Part shown: positions 49,489 to 60,784 of the stretch, in pieces | Layout of the letters: each line of letters begins with the position of its first letter | Position numbering within the stretch: the stretch's first letter is position 1 | DNA from: Lachnospiraceae bacterium | GTDB lineage: Bacteria; Bacillota; Clostridia; Lachnospirales; Lachnospiraceae | Direction of reading: 5' to 3' | Assembly: GCA_910575155.1 (NCBI GenBank) | Contig: CAJTDX010000016.1 | Span: forward strand, 1-64,000 | Length of the DNA: 64,000 nt | Program-made: the position numbers and the translations under genes | The notes under the pieces: generated by a model | The model's database searches: none | The model's input: only the letters and a program-made list of their open reading frames with translations | Told to the model about the DNA's origin: nothing

Positions 49489-50508
49489 GTGGACAGAATA
49501 TTAGTAGTTGACGATGATATCATGAATCTGAAAATGGCGGAACATATCCTGAAAAAGAATTACGAAGTGATTTTGGTATCATCCGGTCAGGAAGCGCTGG
49601 ATTTTCTGGCGCAGGAGACCACGGATATGATTTTGCTGGATTTACATATGCCGGAACTGAACGGCTTAGAAACCATGGAACGCATCCAGGCCATGGATGA
49701 GGCGTCAGAGATTCCCGTTATTTTTCTGACGGCAGATAATGAAAGAGAGACAGAGATTAAGATTTTTAATGCAGGCGCCATGGATTATATCCAGAAGCCC
49801 TTTCTGGCGGAGGTGGTGCTTCGAAGAATTGGCCGTCTGCTGGAATTATTTCATTTACAGCAGTCTTTGCAGCAGGAAGTGGAAAAAAAGACGGGAGAAC
49901 TCAGAGAAAGCAGCCAGAGAATCCAGCGCCTGTCAGAACAGATTATGATGTCTCTGGCGAGCGTTATAGACGCCAAGGACACTTATACCAGAGGACATTC
50001 GATGCGCGTGGCGGAGTATGCCCGCGAACTGGCAAGGCGTATGGGCAAGACGCCCCGTGAACTTGATAATATTTATTATAGCGGTTTGCTGCATGATATC
50101 GGCAAAATAGGCGTTTCAAATAAAATTATCAATAAGCCGGGCAGACTGACGGAGGAAGAATATAATGTAATGCGCGCGCATCCGGAAATCGGGGCGGAAA
50201 TTCTCGGTAACATCTCAGAGCTTCCCGATATTTCCATAGGCGCGCACTGGCATCATGAGCATTATGACGGCTCAGGTTATCCGGACCGCTTGGCGGGGGA
50301 GGAAATTCCTGAGGTTGCGAGAATCATCGGAGTGGCCGATGCCTATGATGCGATGGCTTCCCGGCGCAGTTACCGCGATGTGCTTCCGCAGGAAGTCGTC
50401 CGCAAAGAGATTGAAAAAGCCAAAGGAATACAGTTTGATCCTGTAATTGCAGAATATATGATAAAAATGATAGAAGAAGATAAAGAGTATAAGATGAGAG
50501 AACAATAA
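49489..50508 (+). CDS. Receiver-HD-GYP response regulator (339 aa)
   Basis: Two domains: receiver (residues 1-120, phosphoacceptor Asp51 in MILLDLHMPELNG) and HD-GYP (about 155-330) with HSMRVAEYARELA, LLHDIGKIG, HPEIGAEIL, HHEHYDGSGYP. HD-GYP domains hydrolyse c-di-GMP. GTG start. It precedes a hybrid kinase with an HPt domain, likely phosphate donor. No GGDEF cyclase is in the window. Confidence 0.93.
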   Translation: MDRILVVDDDIMNLKMAEHILKKNYEVILVSSGQEALDFLAQETTDMILLDLHMPELNGLETMERIQAMDEASEIPVIFLTADNERETEIKIFNAGAMDYIQKPFLAEVVLRRIGRLLELFHLQQSLQQEVEKKTGELRESSQRIQRLSEQIMMSLASVIDAKDTYTRGHSMRVAEYARELARRMGKTPRELDNIYYSGLLHDIGKIGVSNKIINKPGRLTEEEYNVMRAHPEIGAEILGNISELPDISIGAHWHHEHYDGSGYPDRLAGEEIPEVARIIGVADAYDAMASRRSYRDVLPQEVVRKEIEKAKGIQFDPVIAEYMIKMIEEDKEYKMREQ

Positions 50509-50550: not shown

Positions 50551-53124
50551 ATGGATAAGCAGGATTTGAGTGAAGATATCAGACATATTGAGGAACAAAT
50601 GGGGAATCATCTGCTGATGGTGTGTATGGCGAGTGTTCTCAGCCTTGTGCTGATCTGTTTTACGATCGTAATGTCATGGGAATTATGGACAATTCCTCTG
50701 ATTGTTATTGGAATTTTGAGTATCTGGTGTTTTCATATCGGAAATTTCATTTCCGGAAAAGCATATGAATACGTATGCACCGGATTTATGATTGTGGAAT
50801 GCTTTTATTTTGGCGTACACCGGCAAAGCTTTACAAGTATGCCCGTTTTGATCTGTCTTTTGTTTCTGATGCTGGCGCTGCTGGAAAAAAAGTTTTTGGT
50901 CTATCTGGTGGAACTCATGTATCTGGCGGCGTTTTTGTATTATTTCATATTGCTTCGCGCAGCAGGGGAAGGTATCATGCGAGGGGATATAGCCGGGATG
51001 GCAGTAGGATTTCTTGGCACCGCCGGCGCAATGGTATTTTCCCTTTTTATTTTGGAACGGAGGCGGGAAAGCCGCAGGGAAATCCGGGAAATGGAAGGTA
51101 AAGTATCCGCGGCCAGACAGCAAAATGCAGATTTTTTATCGAATGTGTCGCATGAGCTGCGCACGCCTATCAATATGGTGACGGGAATCAGCGAAGTAGA
51201 GCTTGGCAGGGATCTGCCGCAGGAGCTGAAAGAAAGTATGCACTCCATTCAGCTCGCGGGCAAACGGCTGGCAGGGCAGATTAATGATATTCTGGATTAT
51301 ACGGAAATTGCGGGAAATACGCTGGTAGTGACGAATGAAAACTATATGCCGGCGTCAATTATCAATGATATTGTCACGCTGGCAGGTATGATGGAAAGAA
51401 GCTCCCGGTTGGAAATGGTGTTTGATCTGGAAACCGCGCTGCCGGCCCTTTTGATTGGAGACGCTGAAAAAATTTCCAGGGTTCTCTGGATTCTGACAGA
51501 AAACGCGATTAAGTTTACAGAAGAGGGAGGAATTTATGTTTTTATGGGCTTTCGGCGGGAACGCTATGGAATAAATCTAAATATTGTTATTGAAGATACC
51601 GGAAAGGGAATGACGCCGGAACAGATTTCCAGCGTATATAACGATTTTTTTCAGGCGGAGAGCGGATGCACCCGCTGCAGCAGGGGACTGGGGCTGGGAA
51701 TATCTATCGCTCAGGGGCTCTTAAACGCTATGGGCGGTTTTCTCCATTTTGAGAGTCCGGCAGGACAGGGGACAAAGGTAACGATATCCATTCCCCAGAA
51801 AGTAGCGGATGAAACGCCCTGTATGACAGTTGCGGACGCCCAGAACATGTGCATTGCATGTTATTTGACACAAAATAAATATAACCGCAGCGAGGTCAGA
51901 GAATATTACAGCCGCATGATACGGCATCTGGCGGAAGGATTGGGAACTTCGGCATATCTCGCTCATCATATGGAAGAACTGGACCGTCTGCTTCGTACGC
52001 ATGAAATTACGCATTTATTTCTTGCCAGGGAAGAATATGAGGCAGACCGTACATATTTTGAGGAGCTGGGGAGAACGGTTTGTATTGCCTTGATTACCGA
52101 CAGAGAATTTGAACCGCCAAAGGGCAGCAGCCTTTATCTGCTGAAAAAACCGTTTTTTGCACTCCCGATTGTCAATCTGCTGAATGGAATGGCTCACAGC
52201 GTCAATTTGGGCGTCAGTATGCAGGAAGACCGGGTTTTTACCTGCGCAGGCCTTAAAACCCTGGTTGTGGATGATGAAGAGATGAACCTGGTAGTTGCAA
52301 GGGGCATTTTAAAGCGTTACGGAATGCAGATTGATACCTGTCTGAGCGGCGCCGCGGCAGTGGAACAATGTATGAATACGGAGTATGGGCTGATTTTTCT
52401 GGACCATATGATGCCGGGCATGGACGGCGTGGAAACTTTAAAGCGTATTCGTGAGCTGCGGGGCGGCTTATATAAACGTCTGCCAATTGTGGCTCTGACG
52501 GCAAATGCGATCAGCGGGGCAAGGGAAATGTTCAAAAGCGAAGGTTTTACGGAATTTGTTCCAAAACCTGTGGAACGGCCGGTGCTGGAACGGGTTTTGC
52601 GCAAGATCTTGCCGGAAGAATGCATTCAGTACGAGACGCCGGGCGTGAACGCGGCGTCAGAGACGGAAACAGGGAAATCGGCACAGAAGCCGGAAGCAGA
52701 AACGTATGCGGCGGAGCCAGAAAAAGATCTGTCTGCACAGGAGCCGCGTTCGGCGCTGGAACGTTTGCAGCAGTCGGGCATTGATGTGGAGCTGGGGCTT
52801 GACTACTGCGCAGGCGCGGAGGATTTTTATCTGGAAATGCTGCAGATGTACTGCGATCAGGAAAAAGAGAAAAAGCAGGAGCTGGCCGCTCTTTTTGAAA
52901 ACGGCGACTGGGAAGCTTATACGGTCAAGGTACATGCGCTCAAAAGTACGTCGCTCACCATTGGCGCAAAGGAATTGTCTGAACAGGCAAAGGAGCTGGA
53001 ATTGGCGGGGAAGGATAAAAATGAGACGTTTATCCGGGAGAACCACGACCGCCTGATGGAGAATTATGAAACGCTCTGTGAAAAGATTGCCAAAAGTATT
53101 CAGGAAGGGGACGGAATGCAGTGA
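50551..53124 (+). CDS. Hybrid sensor histidine kinase with receiver and HPt (857 aa)
   Basis: Six membrane helices (about 20-165) and no obvious sensor domain. The order then is HisKA (His201 in SNVSHELRTPIN), HATPase (about 290-415), a degenerate receiver-like region (about 430-550, no DD or phosphoacceptor Asp), a true receiver (Asp618 in GLIFLDHMMPGMDG), an acidic linker, and a C-terminal HPt (His795 in VHALKSTS). Thus a full His-Asp-His relay in one chain. Its TGA overlaps the GTG of the next gene (GTGA), so the two kinases are coupled. Confidence 0.92.
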   Translation: MDKQDLSEDIRHIEEQMGNHLLMVCMASVLSLVLICFTIVMSWELWTIPLIVIGILSIWCFHIGNFISGKAYEYVCTGFMIVECFYFGVHRQSFTSMPVLICLLFLMLALLEKKFLVYLVELMYLAAFLYYFILLRAAGEGIMRGDIAGMAVGFLGTAGAMVFSLFILERRRESRREIREMEGKVSAARQQNADFLSNVSHELRTPINMVTGISEVELGRDLPQELKESMHSIQLAGKRLAGQINDILDYTEIAGNTLVVTNENYMPASIINDIVTLAGMMERSSRLEMVFDLETALPALLIGDAEKISRVLWILTENAIKFTEEGGIYVFMGFRRERYGINLNIVIEDTGKGMTPEQISSVYNDFFQAESGCTRCSRGLGLGISIAQGLLNAMGGFLHFESPAGQGTKVTISIPQKVADETPCMTVADAQNMCIACYLTQNKYNRSEVREYYSRMIRHLAEGLGTSAYLAHHMEELDRLLRTHEITHLFLAREEYEADRTYFEELGRTVCIALITDREFEPPKGSSLYLLKKPFFALPIVNLLNGMAHSVNLGVSMQEDRVFTCAGLKTLVVDDEEMNLVVARGILKRYGMQIDTCLSGAAAVEQCMNTEYGLIFLDHMMPGMDGVETLKRIRELRGGLYKRLPIVALTANAISGAREMFKSEGFTEFVPKPVERPVLERVLRKILPEECIQYETPGVNAASETETGKSAQKPEAETYAAEPEKDLSAQEPRSALERLQQSGIDVELGLDYCAGAEDFYLEMLQMYCDQEKEKKQELAALFENGDWEAYTVKVHALKSTSLTIGAKELSEQAKELELAGKDKNETFIRENHDRLMENYETLCEKIAKSIQEGDGMQ

Positions 53125-55781
53125 TTAAAAAATTTGTAAAGCCAATTTTGGATCATAAAGTGGATCTGCAGGAGCGGATTTTTCGCCTGGTGACGGGAAT
53201 GGAGGTGACAGCCCTTACGCTTATGCTGCTGGGAGGGATGTTTACCGGGGAAAATGTGGAGAGCCTGGCTGTTTTGTTCGTCTGTATCATCCTGGTTGCG
53301 GCAGTCGCCTCATTTGGTATTTCCAGAAAAAGGATCAACATGGGAGCGACTCTGTCAGGGATAGTTCTGCTCATTTTTTTCCCGCTGAATTTTTTTGCGT
53401 CAGGAGGAATGTACGGAGGAGCGTCTCTGTGGCAGATCTTCCTGTTTGTGTATGTCAGTATAACGCTGTGCGGGATGCGCAGAATTATATTTTTTCTGTG
53501 CGGCATAGCGGAGACGGTTCTGTGCTATTATCTTGATTTTAAACATCCGGAATATGTGATTGTACATACCGTAAATTCGGCGCATATCGATCTGGCAATG
53601 TCGGCTGTTTTGGTGGGAATTTTGATCAGTATCATGATCTTGTTTCAAAACTATATTTATCAGGAAGAAAACCGCATTACCAATCAGCAAAAACAGGAGA
53701 TTGAGGAACTGAGCAAGGCGGAAAACCATTTCTTTTCCAGTATGAGCCATGAAATCCGCACGCCGATCAATACGATTATCGGTTTAAATGAGATGATACT
53801 GCGCAGCGACGTCTCAGAAGATGTGGCGGAAAACGCCAGGAATATCCAGGGAGCCAGCAAAATGCTGCTGACAATCATCAATGATATTCTGGATATGTCA
53901 AAGATTGAATCCGGAAACATGGATATAGTCAAAGTCTCCTATGAGACGGGAGTGTTTTTTTCGGACATCATCAATATGATCTGGATTAAGGCGCAGGAAA
54001 AAAACCTGGAGTTTCATTTAGACATTGATTCTTCTATTCCCAGCCAGCTCTACGGCGACGAGGTGCGTATCAAGCAGATTCTCATTAATCTGTTAAACAA
54101 TGCTGTCAAGTATACCAGTGAAGGAGCAGTTACGCTGTCTGTGCGATGTGAGCGCAGAGGGGTGAACGCTGTGCGCGTCTGCTATTCCGTGCAGGATACT
54201 GGTTTAGGGGTGAAACAGGAGGATATTCCTGATCTATTCAGCGCCTTTAAGCGCATAGATGAAAAGAAGAACCGTTACATTGAGGGAACCGGATTGGGTC
54301 TGAGTATTGTAAAGCAGCTTGTGGATCTAATGGATGGTGAAATTACTGTCAACAGCGTCTATACCAAAGGAACGACGTTTCTTGTCACGCTTGACCAGGA
54401 CATTATAGAAGAACAGGAGCTGGGAGTATTTTCGCTGGATTCCAGAACGGGAACCGGGAACCGGGCGCAGTACAGGCAGAGCTTTGAGGCGCCGGAAGCC
54501 CGGCTTCTGATCGTGGACGATAATGAGATGAATCTTGTGGTGGAAAAGAAACTGCTGTCAGATACGAAAATACAGATTGACACGGCGTCCAGCGGCGCGG
54601 AATGTTTAAAATACACTTTGAAGAAGCGTTATGACGGGATCCTGATGGATCATATGATGCCTGAAATGGACGGGATTGAGTGTTTTCATGCGATTCGTAA
54701 TCAGCCTGCGGGACTGTGCCGGGATGTGCCTGTGATAGCCCTTACGGCAAACGCGGGCAGCGTGAACCAGCTTCTGTATAAAAAGGAAGGGTTTAACGGA
54801 TATCTGGCAAAACCTGTGAGCGGCGTGCTGCTGGAGGCGGCGGTAATGAATATTCTGCCCAGAGAGCTGGTAATTTCCAACGAGGACGCCATGCAGGCAG
54901 AAGTGGGAAAAGAAGTGCTGATGTTTGACCAGAGGAAACGTGTATCCCTTATGATTACCACAGACAGCGTAGCGGATCTTCCGGAACCATTTTTGAAACG
55001 AATGGGGATTTCTGTGCTGCCTTATTATATCTGTACGGATTATGGACGCTTTCTGGACGGCACGGAGCTGAAAGCGGATGATCTGCTGCTCTACCTGTCC
55101 GAAGGAAAGCGGGCGTTTTCCAGGGCGCCGGATGTGGAAGATTATGTTAATTTCTTTGCGCAGAAACTGACGGAAGCGCAGAATGTAGTACACATTTCTA
55201 TGGCGAAACATGCCAGCGAAGGATATCAACATGCGCTGGAAGCTGCAAGATCTTTTGAAAATGTTACAGTGCTTGATTCAGGGCATCTTTCCAGCGGACT
55301 GGGACTTTCTGTGCTGCATGCGGCGCATTATGCGGGCCTCAACGCTTCCAGAGAGGAAATTATTGAGCAGGTGGAAGCTGTGAAGAAATGTATTTCCAGC
55401 AGTTTTATTATGGGCAATACGAGGATGCTTCACCAGGGAGGAAGGATTTCCAGGAGCGTGTATGTTTTTTGTGAGAAATTGCTTCTGCACCCTGTGATTA
55501 AGCTCCATAAAAGTAAGATGACGGTGGGTGGAATCATGATGGGAAGTTCTGCCCATGTGGCGGAACAGTATATCCGCAGGACGCTGAAAAATGTATCTGA
55601 GATTGACAAAAGCATTTTATTCCTGACTTATTCCGGAATGAGTTCCCGGCAGTTGACGGAGATTAAGAAGATGGTACAGAAACAATGTCCTTTTGAACGG
55701 ATTTATCTGCAGAAATCTTCCGCGTCCATTTCATGTAACTGCGGTCCAGGTTCTTTTGGGCTGCTGTTTTTAAAAATGTAG
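53121..55781 (+). CDS. Hybrid histidine kinase fused to a C-terminal DegV (lipid-binding) domain (886 aa)
   Basis: Four or so membrane helices (residues 25-175), HisKA (His210 in SSMSHEIRTPIN), HATPase (about 305-430, GTGLGLSIV), receiver (about 462-575, Asp510 in GILMDHMMPEMDG). Residues about 608-886 then form a complete DegV domain. Its marks: MITTDSVADLPEPF, SMAKHASEGYQHA, NTRMLHQGGRIS, HPVIKL and CGPGSFGLLF. Stand-alone DegV (FakB) proteins carry fatty acids for FakA. The canonical TSQPS, second serine, and His before GPG appear changed (FSRAP, SM, N), so a different ligand is possible. GTG start overlaps the prior stop. I know no characterised kinase with this domain. Confidence 0.88.
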   Translation: MIKKFVKPILDHKVDLQERIFRLVTGMEVTALTLMLLGGMFTGENVESLAVLFVCIILVAAVASFGISRKRINMGATLSGIVLLIFFPLNFFASGGMYGGASLWQIFLFVYVSITLCGMRRIIFFLCGIAETVLCYYLDFKHPEYVIVHTVNSAHIDLAMSAVLVGILISIMILFQNYIYQEENRITNQQKQEIEELSKAENHFFSSMSHEIRTPINTIIGLNEMILRSDVSEDVAENARNIQGASKMLLTIINDILDMSKIESGNMDIVKVSYETGVFFSDIINMIWIKAQEKNLEFHLDIDSSIPSQLYGDEVRIKQILINLLNNAVKYTSEGAVTLSVRCERRGVNAVRVCYSVQDTGLGVKQEDIPDLFSAFKRIDEKKNRYIEGTGLGLSIVKQLVDLMDGEITVNSVYTKGTTFLVTLDQDIIEEQELGVFSLDSRTGTGNRAQYRQSFEAPEARLLIVDDNEMNLVVEKKLLSDTKIQIDTASSGAECLKYTLKKRYDGILMDHMMPEMDGIECFHAIRNQPAGLCRDVPVIALTANAGSVNQLLYKKEGFNGYLAKPVSGVLLEAAVMNILPRELVISNEDAMQAEVGKEVLMFDQRKRVSLMITTDSVADLPEPFLKRMGISVLPYYICTDYGRFLDGTELKADDLLLYLSEGKRAFSRAPDVEDYVNFFAQKLTEAQNVVHISMAKHASEGYQHALEAARSFENVTVLDSGHLSSGLGLSVLHAAHYAGLNASREEIIEQVEAVKKCISSSFIMGNTRMLHQGGRISRSVYVFCEKLLLHPVIKLHKSKMTVGGIMMGSSAHVAEQYIRRTLKNVSEIDKSILFLTYSGMSSRQLTEIKKMVQKQCPFERIYLQKSSASISCNCGPGSFGLLFLKM

Positions 55782-55877
55782 GCCGGGCGCAGGAAGATAT
55801 GAAAATTTTTCCGGGTGAAATTTTTCCAGAGAAATGTTATGATATCAAGGTAAATGAAACTTGAGGTCGAGGCGGTT

Positions 55878-56909
55878 ATGAGAGAAAACAGGAACAGGAA
55901 AAACCGGAAAAAAATCACAGTGATCCTTGGACTGGCGGCAGCGGCTCTGCTGGCCGGATATATCATACTGGTAAATATACTGGTCAGCGCGGCGCTGGTG
56001 CCCTCCTTTATGGAAAAACTGGATGCTTTTGAACGGATCACAAAAGAAAGTTATGCGGCGCAGGTTCAGACGTCTGATATTAAAATCAACAGGAACGCGG
56101 CGTTAAAGGAAACCAGAGAATGGCTTAAGACGGCTGAGAGCCGCAAGATTTCCAGAGAGACGGAGGAAGGATACCGGCTGATTGCAGAAGAGTTTCCGGC
56201 GGAGGAAAAGGGAAGCGGCCGGCAGAAGAATCATAAATGGGTATTATTGCTGCACGGATATACTGGCTGGAAAGAAGAAATGTATCCCTTTGCCCTCTGG
56301 TATCATCAGCAGGGTTATCATGTACTTGCGCCGGATTTGCGCTGCCAGGGGGAAAGCCAGGGTGATTTTATCGGCATGGGATGGACGGATCACTTTGACA
56401 ATATGCTCTGGATTGAATATATTTTATCACAGGATCCTGAGGCGCAGATTATACTTCACGGCCAGTCCATGGGGGCTGCCGCGGCGCTGATGATGACAGG
56501 GGAAGAGGATCTGCCGGAGAATATCTGCGCGGTTATTTCTGACTGTGCTTATACGGACGCCTATTCCATGTTTGGAGAAAAAATTAAGGAATGGTTTGGG
56601 CTGCCGGCGTTTCCTCTGGTGGATTCCGCATGTGTGGCGCTTCGCATCCGGGGCGGCTATAATCTCAGGGATGCGTCCGCCCTGGACGCCGTGAAAAAAA
56701 GCAGGGTGCCGACGCTGTTTATACATGGGGATGAAGACGCCATGATTTCTGTGCGGATGGCAAAGGAGCTGTATGAAGCCGCGGTCTGTGAGAAAGAGCT
56801 GCTGATTGTAGAGGGAGCGGGACACGCGCAGTCCCAGGACAAAGATCCATCTACATATTATGGGAAAATTAAGTATTTTTTAGGAAAAAACCTTGCAAAA
56901 TGCCAGTAG
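55878..56909 (+). CDS. Membrane-anchored alpha/beta hydrolase (343 aa)
   Basis: One N-terminal helix (residues about 10-35) after a basic stretch (RENRNRKNRKK), outside then. The hydrolase core has oxyanion LLHGYTGWKE, nucleophile Ser in GQSMGAA, catalytic Asp in LFIHGDEDAMIS, His in GAGHAQS. It resembles serine aminopeptidase/lipase-type hydrolases. Start 55878 is preferred (GAGG 5 bases upstream), though 55854 is possible. It is downstream of the DegV-fused kinase (about 95-base gap). A role in releasing the lipid that kinase senses is speculation. Confidence 0.87.
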   Translation: MRENRNRKNRKKITVILGLAAAALLAGYIILVNILVSAALVPSFMEKLDAFERITKESYAAQVQTSDIKINRNAALKETREWLKTAESRKISRETEEGYRLIAEEFPAEEKGSGRQKNHKWVLLLHGYTGWKEEMYPFALWYHQQGYHVLAPDLRCQGESQGDFIGMGWTDHFDNMLWIEYILSQDPEAQIILHGQSMGAAAALMMTGEEDLPENICAVISDCAYTDAYSMFGEKIKEWFGLPAFPLVDSACVALRIRGGYNLRDASALDAVKKSRVPTLFIHGDEDAMISVRMAKELYEAAVCEKELLIVEGAGHAQSQDKDPSTYYGKIKYFLGKNLAKCQ

Positions 56910-58230: not shown

Positions 58231-58584
58231 ATGAAGTACCATCGTTTGAAATACCGTTTATGTATGCAGCATAGTTTTGATGGACGAATCGAGAATAAAC
58301 ATCATCATTTGATCGAGATTGAAATTGTGGCGAGACAGACGGCGGAAGATTTTATGGAATTTGCCAGTATGGATTCTATTTTGGAGAAGGTGTTCGCGCC
58401 TTACCAGCATCAGTATTTGAATGAGTGTTCTGAATTTGAGGGAGATACAAGTATTGAGCGTCTGGGCGAGGTGTTTTACCGGAAAGTGAAGGAAGCGTTA
58501 GAGCGGCACCGCTGGAAGTTTGCCCGTTTTGAGATTAGTGAGACGCCTCTGCGTGTTTATGCTATTGTGGAAGAAACATTTTAA
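58231..58584 (+). CDS. Small 6-pyruvoyl-tetrahydropterin-synthase-related protein of the XrtG locus (117 aa)
   Basis: Resembles QueD/PTPS-type enzymes in miniature: HSFDG early, HHHLIEIEI (putative metal-site histidines), and a C-terminal WKFARFEISETPLRVYAIVEE. Small members of this family are known to occur next to Gram-positive exosortase (XrtG) genes, with role unknown. It may not make a pterin at all. The 3' end is 28 bases before the surface protein gene. Confidence 0.78.
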   Translation: MKYHRLKYRLCMQHSFDGRIENKHHHLIEIEIVARQTAEDFMEFASMDSILEKVFAPYQHQYLNECSEFEGDTSIERLGEVFYRKVKEALERHRWKFARFEISETPLRVYAIVEETF

Positions 58585-58612
58585 AATGATGTATAAAAAG
58601 GGAGAGTGGTTT

Positions 58613-60784
58613 ATGAAGTTCAAAACGATTTTTAAAGGAGCTGCGGCGGTTGTGATGTCAATGTCGCTCATTCTTTCGGGTATGCCTGTTATGGCGACAG
58701 AAACAGACAGTCAGCAGCAGGCGGAAGCTGGGGAACAGACGTCCGCACCGGTACAGGAGCCACAGCAGGACCAGCGGCCGAAAACGCAGGATCAGCAGCC
58801 TTCGGAAGAACAGCAGCAGCCCCGGGAGGAGCCAAAAGAAGAAGCGCCAGGAGAAGAGGCGCAGGCGGAGGAATCTCAGCCCCGGGAGGAGCCAAAAGAA
58901 GAAGCGCCGGAAGAAGAAGCGCAGGCGGAGCAGTCTCAGCCTTCAGAGGAAGAGCAGCAGCCAGACGAGGAGCCGAAAACAGAAGCGTCAGAGGAGGATG
59001 CGCAGCCGAACAAGGAAGACGTAAAAGATAAAGCGGAGGAGAACGCGGACGAAGGGCAGCCGGATGTATCTGACATGGAAGAAGAATCTGCTGAGGATGC
59101 GCAGCCGGACGAAGAAACCGTACCGCAGGTATTTTCTCTGGAACAATTGCCATCTGTAAAGGGAAGCATTGTCGTAGATGGAGATCTGTCTGACTGGGAG
59201 GAAGTAACGGAGCGTGCCTGCGGCGCGTCCAATGTAAATTCCTGGAAAACAGCTTTTTCTGCGGATGGAACGATATTGTATTTTTGTTATACAGGAAGCG
59301 CGGGAAGCGAGTGGGATTACGGCTTTGCCGGAAACGGCAACAGTTTCCGTTTTACGTATGCGGACGGAGCCGGGGCAGAGGACGCTTCGCTTTCTATTAA
59401 TGCATGGCAGGGCGGAGCGAAAGTCAAAAATGCGTGGTACGGCGATGTGCAGGGTTCGTCTGCGGCCGTGAAGAATGAAGCGCACGGGAATAATGCCGGC
59501 CCTTATGCGCTTGAGTTTGCCGTTCCGGTAAGTTTTTTCCACAGCATGGATTTTACGCTTGAGTTTGGAGGAGTGTCCATAGCTTCCAAAGATATTGAAA
59601 AAATAAACGGCCAGGCAGTGGAAGTAAAGCCGCAGCCGGTATATACGGGGATTTCCATCGACGGCAATTATTCTGACTGGGCGGCGGTAGCAAAGACTGA
59701 CCAGGACTGTCCCAATGAACAGCATCGGGGCTGTCTTTCCCAGGCAGCGGCAGTCTATGACGGCGACTGGTTTTATCTTTATCTCAGAGACGGAGAGGGA
59801 AGCAATGCTTCTGGCGCCGGAACCCATTCCAATGGCAAATTCGCCATTATTTCGGATTTGGGATATGAGACGGATATCCAGCTGAGCACAGCTCCGGCAG
59901 TCAATGGCGTGGACGGCGCGCAGGTTGCCTATGTGGGAAGGGAATGGGAGATTGCTATTCCTAAGAGCCAGCTTCCAAAATACAGAGAGAGCCTTTCTTT
60001 CGGTTTTTATGAAGGCAGCGTTATCCTTTCCGGTCTTGTAAATTTACAGCCGGATCATGAAAATAATCTGGAGAATCTTTTCAGCGGCATTATCTATGAC
60101 GGTTCCTATGAAGACTGGGAGGATTACGGCCATGCTACCATTGAATATGCCACGGCAGGTTCTCAGGAATCACAGATTGACGCAAAAGGCGCTTTATATT
60201 TTGAAGGAGAGAAGCTGTATGCCCATGTAGTGACCAACATGCCTCAGCATCTGCAGGAAGCCGGAGGGGAATTTACAGCGGCGGTTACGATTGCCTTTAA
60301 CCAGAAACAGAGCGATTTGCAGAATGGCACATATGACCGCAGTATGACCTTCAGTCCCAGATTTGTGACGGTGGACGCCAATGGAACCATTAACTGGAAT
60401 CCGCAGCTTCTGGGACTTGCGGAGGGTACTTATGAATACTATATTGCCTCTGCGGATGCATGGCATACATCAACCAATATCAATAATCTTCATGAGATGG
60501 ATCAGATGTATGGAAGGATGATGATGACAGTCGGCAGGGATGGAAAGGATGAGATGGAATTTTATCTGGAGCTGCCGATGATTGCCAGAAAACTTGGTGT
60601 AAATGAGACAGACCTCAAAGAAATTGCAGCGCAGTTTGGACGTATTGGACAGCAATGGATTTATACGGCGGGCACCTCTACCGGGCCTGTGGCTGGAGTT
60701 GGTCTCTGCATCGCCGCAGCCGGGTTCATAATCTGGTATAAGAAGAAAAGTTTGTTTGAACTGTTATTTGCATCGGCAAAATAA
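58613..60784 (+). CDS. Secreted repeat protein with C-terminal Firmicu-CTERM-type sorting signal (723 aa)
   Basis: Signal peptide residues 1-26; low-complexity P/E/Q region 30-180 containing 20-residue repeats; three modules each opening with a DG...DW pattern (VVDGDLSDW near 185, SIDGNYSDW near 346, IYDGSYEDW near 493). These resemble CBM9/DOMON-like sugar- or haem-binding folds, which is a guess. The C-terminus (TGPVAGVGLCIAAAGFIIW then KKKSLFELLFASAK) has the shape of an exosortase signal: short motif, helix, basic cluster. ATG 58613 with GGGAG site; the frame opens upstream at 58520 without a site. Confidence 0.83.
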   Translation: MKFKTIFKGAAAVVMSMSLILSGMPVMATETDSQQQAEAGEQTSAPVQEPQQDQRPKTQDQQPSEEQQQPREEPKEEAPGEEAQAEESQPREEPKEEAPEEEAQAEQSQPSEEEQQPDEEPKTEASEEDAQPNKEDVKDKAEENADEGQPDVSDMEEESAEDAQPDEETVPQVFSLEQLPSVKGSIVVDGDLSDWEEVTERACGASNVNSWKTAFSADGTILYFCYTGSAGSEWDYGFAGNGNSFRFTYADGAGAEDASLSINAWQGGAKVKNAWYGDVQGSSAAVKNEAHGNNAGPYALEFAVPVSFFHSMDFTLEFGGVSIASKDIEKINGQAVEVKPQPVYTGISIDGNYSDWAAVAKTDQDCPNEQHRGCLSQAAAVYDGDWFYLYLRDGEGSNASGAGTHSNGKFAIISDLGYETDIQLSTAPAVNGVDGAQVAYVGREWEIAIPKSQLPKYRESLSFGFYEGSVILSGLVNLQPDHENNLENLFSGIIYDGSYEDWEDYGHATIEYATAGSQESQIDAKGALYFEGEKLYAHVVTNMPQHLQEAGGEFTAAVTIAFNQKQSDLQNGTYDRSMTFSPRFVTVDANGTINWNPQLLGLAEGTYEYYIASADAWHTSTNINNLHEMDQMYGRMMMTVGRDGKDEMEFYLELPMIARKLGVNETDLKEIAAQFGRIGQQWIYTAGTSTGPVAGVGLCIAAAGFIIWYKKKSLFELLFASAK
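58817..58936 (+). repeat. Two tandem 60-bp repeats in the surface protein gene
   Basis: Units 58817-58876 and 58877-58936 are nearly identical, encoding QPREEPKEEAPxEEAQAExS; the start of a third unit follows at 58937. Could expand or contract between strains. Confidence 0.8.

Follow-up and report, generated by a model that had tools for sequence, protein, structure and literature searches.

Several histidine kinases can converge on one phosphorelay. RcsC/RcsD and GacS/RetS/LadS are systems in which two or more hybrid kinases do so, and when only one HPt serves two such kinases, a likely reading is that they feed, or drain, a common acceptor. Hybrid and unorthodox kinases of the BarA, ArcB and TorS kind are built in the order HisKA-HATPase-REC. 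To our knowledge, neither these kinases nor Staphylococcus aureus SaeS contains a DegV domain.

DegV proteins of the FakB type (PF02645, TIGR00762) are known as carriers in lipid synthesis. Thr62, Ser95, Ser171 and His270 of S. aureus FakB1 form a carboxylate network, and a role is also described for Arg173 (PMC8892158). Arg173 is needed for phosphorylation by FakA and not for fatty-acid exchange, and Arg205 serves both FakA and membrane binding (PMC9136124). A palmitate-bound structure exists for the DegV protein TM841 (PMC2954198). SaeS shows a different way for fatty-acid signals to reach a kinase of a Gram-positive bacterium: free fatty acids inhibit it, and its activity follows the free fatty-acid pool under FakAB control (PMC5539427). 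Unlike SaeS, the kinase described here has a FakB-like domain as part of itself. No account of a HisKA-HATPase-REC-DegV architecture was found among the open-access papers that the literature searches listed, and such a fusion is absent from the available excerpts of PMC12688256, PMC3146951, PMC3533761 and PMC2954198.

The window is a 64,000-nucleotide stretch of a Lachnospiraceae contig (CAJTDX010000016.1) and encodes this protein, HK2-DegV or HK2, with the following features:

53121..55781, + strand: HK2-DegV, membrane region-HisKA-HATPase-REC-DegV in one frame (886 aa, GTG start)
53187..53642, + strand: N-terminal membrane region of HK2, from hydropathy (hydrophobic segments within residues 23-174)
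53748..53750, + strand: codon of the HisKA phospho-acceptor His210, identical in 49/49 aligned fusions
54648..54650, + strand: codon of the receiver Asp510, identical in 49/49 aligned fusions
54948..55775, + strand: DegV domain of HK2, residues 610-885 (Pfam PF02645, E 5.3e-38; solved relatives include FakB1 entries)

The frame runs from the GTG start through 886 codons without interruption. A Pfam scan of HK2 placed HisKA at residues 202-265, HATPase_c at 312-426, Response_reg at 463-574 and DegV at 610-885, with E values of 2.4e-17 to 5.3e-38 and all matches above the curated cut-offs; it returned no family for the membrane region (residues 23-174). The HisKA histidine, the tested N and G residues of the HATPase and the receiver aspartate are invariant in 49/49 aligned HK2 proteins, as in a hybrid histidine kinase. 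The C-terminal part is a full-length member of the DegV family, scoring 131 bits against PF02645 (cut-off 27) and 148 bits against the NCBIfam model TIGR00762 (cut-off 99.7), and its solved relatives are DegV/FakB proteins. With a score above the cut-off of this NCBI model, HK2-DegV may be filed in databases as either a DegV or a hybrid kinase. The original prediction of a single-frame fusion with membrane helices, His210, Asp510 and a DegV domain was right in coordinates and residues (Pfam, NCBIfam and alignment), and the fusion is confirmed as genuine, old and conserved.

The family sample comprised 200 Lachnospiraceae genomes, the window's own included. The DegV domain of HK2 was matched in 56 of them at E <= 1e-30, and a long fused frame is present in 35 (own genome included), in G103 only as an odd HK1-type form. 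HisKA-HATPase-REC-DegV frames of at least 724 aa occur in 33/200 genomes; G163 has a frame of the same kind stopped at 522 aa by the contig end, and at least 34/200 genomes thus carry the fusion. The G116 fusion is without part of the membrane region, and in G180 the membrane part lies in a different frame. A 374-aa frame in G174, ended by the contig, and a 631-aa frame in G218 (C28, its third fusion-like match) were left out of flank retrieval. Within the window's genus, 23/29 genomes match the whole of HK2-DegV at E <= 1e-100, most of these matches covering the kinase part only; near-full-length matches occur in six, own included (G000, G205, G176, G225, G219, G218). Four further genus members have relatives that are 84, 76, 76 and 62% identical over nearly the whole length, with zero inner stops. 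A single scan of contigs yielded one locus, L005 (72% identical; excluded as a duplicate of L051), and relatives were therefore taken from whole-genome searches. Of 391 class genomes searched, those outside the family have long fused frames in three cases only, all in one genus of family f45 and confirmed by domain layout. A search of 398 phylum genomes found none outside the family; as cut-offs were strict and no more than six candidates per genome were scored in either search, absence elsewhere is a weak statement. Purifying selection acts on the DegV part of HK2: compared with three relatives, its dN/dS is 0.10, 0.14 and 0.15, at dS > 1 and hence near saturation.

Directly upstream of HK2 lies a second hybrid kinase, HK1, and the two genes share 4 bases:

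50551..53124, + strand: HK1, hybrid kinase with membrane region, HisKA (H201), HATPase, pseudoreceiver, REC (D618) and HPt (H795), from Pfam and alignment
52786..53121, + strand: HPt region of HK1 (Pfam 762-826; HPt profile 750-852)

The family set contains 53 fusion loci, 48 from the 200-genome search and the window taken together and 5 from the genus search, and HK1 is the immediate upstream gene in 45. The other eight are as follows. The contig end truncates HK1 in L071; HK1 is cut and split in L062 and split in two frames in L072; it is whole in L101, above an HK2 split in two with the membrane part in the other frame. L059 stops at a contig end and, being cut, entered no alignment of full proteins, and upstream of L064 there is a stand-alone REC only, then the contig start. 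In L088 and L093 an HK1-type core lies within the DegV protein itself, with no HisKA match and no REC. Four added loci (L112-L115), three of them from family f45, have HK1 upstream in 4/4. HK1 and HK2 genes overlap in 35/51 pairs, most commonly by 4 bases (22 pairs), and the catalytic residues tested are invariant in 47 aligned HK1 as well as in the 49 HK2. Two forms were recorded separately: the membrane and kinase parts of HK2 at L101:8032-10813, which occupy different frames and were kept as pieces, and the pseudokinase-DegV form of the signalling clade (L088:6951-9563, L093:6790-9378), downstream of which a GGDEF protein is encoded (scanned in L088).

Judged by their trees, HK1 and HK2 are inherited together. 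The two trees are congruent over 50 pairs (Mantel r 0.83, 0/2000 permutations as good), and swapping partners between paralogues in the 10 genomes with two or three pairs lowered the fit in 12/12 cases, in some by 0.003-0.004. HK1 was further surveyed in 32 chosen genomes, 16 with and 16 without a fused frame, by a profile made from such HK1s. Matches of at least 870 bits comprised 22 copies in 16/16 fusion genomes, every one at a fusion locus, and occurred in 0/16 non-fusion genomes; because the profile derives from fusion-locus HK1s, the telling parts are the absence from non-fusion genomes and the lack of extra copies. The best match without a fusion reached 678 bits in G009 (L155), an HK1-like kinase with an HPt behind a REC protein and no adjacent DegV. 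At L157:7444-12350, two HK1-like hybrid kinases stand in tandem behind a REC protein, with one HPt and DegV absent. HK1-type kinases and two-kinase tandems therefore also occur without DegV, and the two-kinase, one-HPt arrangement is not unique to it.

The HPt of HK1 is the sole HPt-profile match among the frames of the window. By profile, HK1 carries the HPt in 40/50 fused pairs (the His is seen by alignment in 37 of these, and the 3 of f45 show it by motif). At 7/50 pairs the HPt is found at the HK2 end, with the motif in 7/7; there HK2 is longer (1117-1152 aa) and HK1 short (676-695 aa). In 3/50 pairs (L075, L101, L078) the HPt of HK1 scores 13-18 bits, its His is missing (by alignment in L075 and L078, by eye in L101), and a separate HPt protein with a HALKS motif adjoins the pair. 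By Pfam, this separate protein comes with REC in L101, has HPt alone over threshold in L075, and is cut by the contig in L078. No pair has an HPt in both kinases (0/50). The exclusivity of HK1 versus HK2 gives a Fisher p of 1.2e-6, for events that are not independent, since the seven HPt-in-HK2 pairs form one clade (SH-aLRT 98) that probably reflects a single relocation. Extra HPt-bearing proteins lie near 5/50 pairs (L065, L066, L079, L084, L095), so the pair need not be the sole relay there. One HPt per co-inherited pair, placed in HK1, in HK2 or apart and never in both, argues that HK1 and HK2 very probably share one phosphorelay. In many HK1, the HPt profile aligns through C-termini of ∼100 residues beyond the HPt (e.g. 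L061, L090, L098).

HK1 ends in REC-HPt as do kinases of the BarA, ArcB and TorS kind, and scores best, though below cut-off, with the BarA model of NCBIfam; unlike in these kinases, one HPt is found between two kinases here. The arrangement resembles RcsC/RcsD and GacS/RetS/LadS in that several hybrid kinases would serve one phosphorelay, with homology claimed for the kinase core only. It differs from them in that the HPt moved between partners and that a FakB-like domain belongs to the set. Leaving the lipid part aside, a pair whose single HPt switched partners would, if true, offer a clean case for the evolution of multi-kinase relays.

A candidate output is encoded beside the pair:

49489..50508, + strand: REC-HD-GYP response regulator, predicted c-di-GMP phosphodiesterase and likely relay output (HDIGK and HHEHYDGSGYP motifs)

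Neighbours were compared over 55 loci (53 fused and 2 with a free DegV), with genes called greedily so that small neighbours may be miscalled. A regulator of the same group (c1, REC joined to HD-GYP or GGDEF) was found on the same strand within five genes in 23/55 loci, in 19 of them two genes upstream, and was not found within these limits in 32/55. When the c1 proteins were scanned with Pfam, three f45 genes added, REC was detected in 26/26, HD in 18/26 and GGDEF in 13/26; the HD-GYP or GGDEF motif patterns matched 25/26, L056 having a Pfam HD match and no pattern match. In place of a c1 regulator, some loci carry an MCP/CheW/CheA set or REC proteins that stand alone. A c2 REC protein occurs in 16/55 loci, and the 18 c2-type proteins scanned are REC only. 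Genes of groups c6, c5 and c3 stand at -4, -3 and -2 in 8/55 loci (L077, L087, L090, L091, L092, L096, L098, L102), as CheA/CheW/methyl-accepting clusters upstream of the pair. Pfam detects CheA in two of the eight (L090, L098) and CheW with MCP in L098, the rest being assigned by clustering, and a connection of these eight loci to chemosensory arrays is possible.

The DegV domains of these loci number 58 (54 fused, 2 free and 2 odd) and form one clade against 47 stand-alone DegVs, with support of 100 in a quick tree in which two long branches were flagged. FakB1 positions were mapped through an alignment to FakB1, Thr62 to 667, Ser95 to 699, Arg173 to 775, Arg205 to 808 and His270 to 873. Two of the codons in the window are:

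55443..55445, + strand: codon of HK2 Arg775, in the place of FakB1 Arg173, kept in the window and in 26/58 signalling DegVs
55737..55739, + strand: codon of HK2 Asn873, in the place of FakB1 His270 (Asn in 53/58 signalling, His in 45/47 stand-alone DegVs)

The set T-S-R-H at Thr62, Ser95, Arg173 and His270 is found in 42/47 stand-alone DegVs and in 0/58 signalling DegVs, the stand-alone controls being biased towards the best Pfam scorers among the matches listed and near relatives. By this alignment, the signalling clade is one that lost the FakB signature. Its commonest set, S-S-R-N (19/58), is also that of the window protein, in which the Thr62-Ser95-His270 network reads Ser, Ser, Asn. The Arg173 equivalent is present in 26/58 signalling versus 47/47 stand-alone DegVs. 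Column 808 (Arg205) has Gly in 56/58 and Arg in 0/58 signalling DegVs, and Arg at the adjacent column 807 occurs in 2/58 versus 31/47 stand-alone DegVs, with an alignment gap nearby. The Ser171 position is uninformative, being Gly in 44/47 stand-alone DegVs. The polar positions are not strict, with Ser or Thr at 667 in 46/58 and Ser at 699 in 32/58, which leaves room for a pocket that differs between members or is missing from some. A departure from FakB at ligand positions, as first proposed, and at catalytic ones is borne out in the alignment of 58 against 47 DegVs. The claim that several ligand residues are changed held for His270 (Asn) and Thr62 (Ser) and failed for Ser95 and Arg173, whose equivalents are kept in the window protein. 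The initial interpretation is supported in part and did not extend to HK1, the one HPt of the pair or the nearby c-di-GMP enzymes. The own genome encodes a FakA-like protein (PF13684 match) and three other DegVs, so absence of a Fak system does not account for the residue change.

The window domain thus resembles FakB1 in its full-length family match and in part of the carboxylate-binding polar set (Ser667, Ser699, Arg775). It is unlike FakB1 in being fused behind the REC of a hybrid kinase, with a kinase as its constant neighbour, in having Asn for His270 and no Arg205, and in belonging to a clade where Arg173 is lost in 32/58 members.

These observations suggest a model in which HK2-DegV would be one half of a two-kinase phosphorelay, acting with HK1 at the membrane, presumably in a complex. 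HK1 and HK2, both with complete kinase and receiver residues, would use the common HPt at the HK1 end; from this HPt, phosphate would go to a response regulator (in the window, the REC-HD-GYP protein), and the relay would thereby set the c-di-GMP level. The DegV would be a former FakB that does not serve FakA, having kept the fold hallmarks in its sequence and part of the polar set. Without the His and the FakA- and membrane-binding Arg, it would serve as a ligand-binding module in the cytoplasm, with an acyl chain the likeliest ligand, and its occupancy would bias the HK1/HK2 pair. A FakB-derived ligand-binding module that regulates a two-kinase relay and is no longer a FakA substrate is, narrowly, the account that we favour as a whole. 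That the DegV is a regulatory ligand-binding module is the somewhat firmer part and seems probable, because the domain persists with HK1 in the absence of the HK2 kinase, the FakA-linked residues are gone and most copies remain polar. That its ligand is an acyl chain is plausible but stops short of probable, an assignment resting on membership of the DegV family, with its palmitate-bound structure, and on the residual polar set. The full chain, in which the domain is the ligand sensor of a Lachnospiraceae two-kinase relay and free acyl chains act through c-di-GMP on motility or attachment, is offered tentatively. Through the fusion, lipids may be coupled to motility or biofilm signalling. If true, signalling kinases would have FakB-type proteins as lipid sensors within them, in addition to the carrier role of these proteins, and host or dietary fatty acids would act on c-di-GMP by a testable route in a widespread gut family.

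The loci in which the HK2 kinase half is gone bear on what the DegV does. It stays with HK1 in L103 and L104 and, within one protein, in L088 and L093; it may therefore work with HK1 no less than with the kinase core of its own protein. This retention, as an unfused DegV behind HK1 or on an HK1-type core that lacks REC and the HisKA His, would also be expected of a docking or dimerisation module that binds no small ligand and holds HK1 and HK2 together. Such a role fits the absence of the full FakB signature from all 58 copies, and an interface could be formed by residues whose conservation is largely confined to the signalling clade (e.g. T639, G642, F678, L683, F712, N873). A pure scaffold would, however, have no obvious need of the polar residues still seen at 667 (Ser/Thr, 46/58) and 873 (Asn, 53/58), nor of the Ser, Ser and Arg kept in the window protein, and we regard docking as unlikely, if the most serious competitor.

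The same loci weigh against an output role, in which the domain would bind fatty acids and, gated by phosphorylation of Asp510, supply acyl chains to FakA or the membrane or hold them back. The DegV does sit C-terminal to REC, the usual place of output domains, which counts against a sensor reading, and a FakA-like protein is at hand in the genome. However, the DegV persists without a REC or HisKA match in L088 and L093 and is unjoined to any REC in L103 and L104, and the loss of Arg205, the Asn in place of His270 and the frequent loss of Arg173 make service to FakA unlikely. We consider this role improbable.

An artefact, in which a frame join or assembly error united two unrelated genes, might be suspected from the unusual architecture and from individual members that are split or cut (L062, L072, L101), but was rejected as vanishingly improbable given the recurrence of long fused frames in the family (35/200 genomes, G103 only in the odd form), the near-full-length genus relatives, the second family and the purifying selection throughout the DegV part. 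Separate genes in relatives were looked for, and an unfused DegV was seen in two loci, L103 and L104; as both free DegVs fall inside the signalling clade (fork support 90) and directly follow HK1, they are no pointer to a fusion artefact.

Two further frames lie downstream in the window. At 55854-56909, directly after HK2, is an alpha/beta hydrolase (Hydrolase_4) that occupies the same place in 4 genus loci (c14). It could release an acyl ligand, this synteny being weak as evidence. At 58520-60784 is a 754-aa frame with a Glu/Pro/Gln-rich low-complexity stretch, for which no Pfam family was found.
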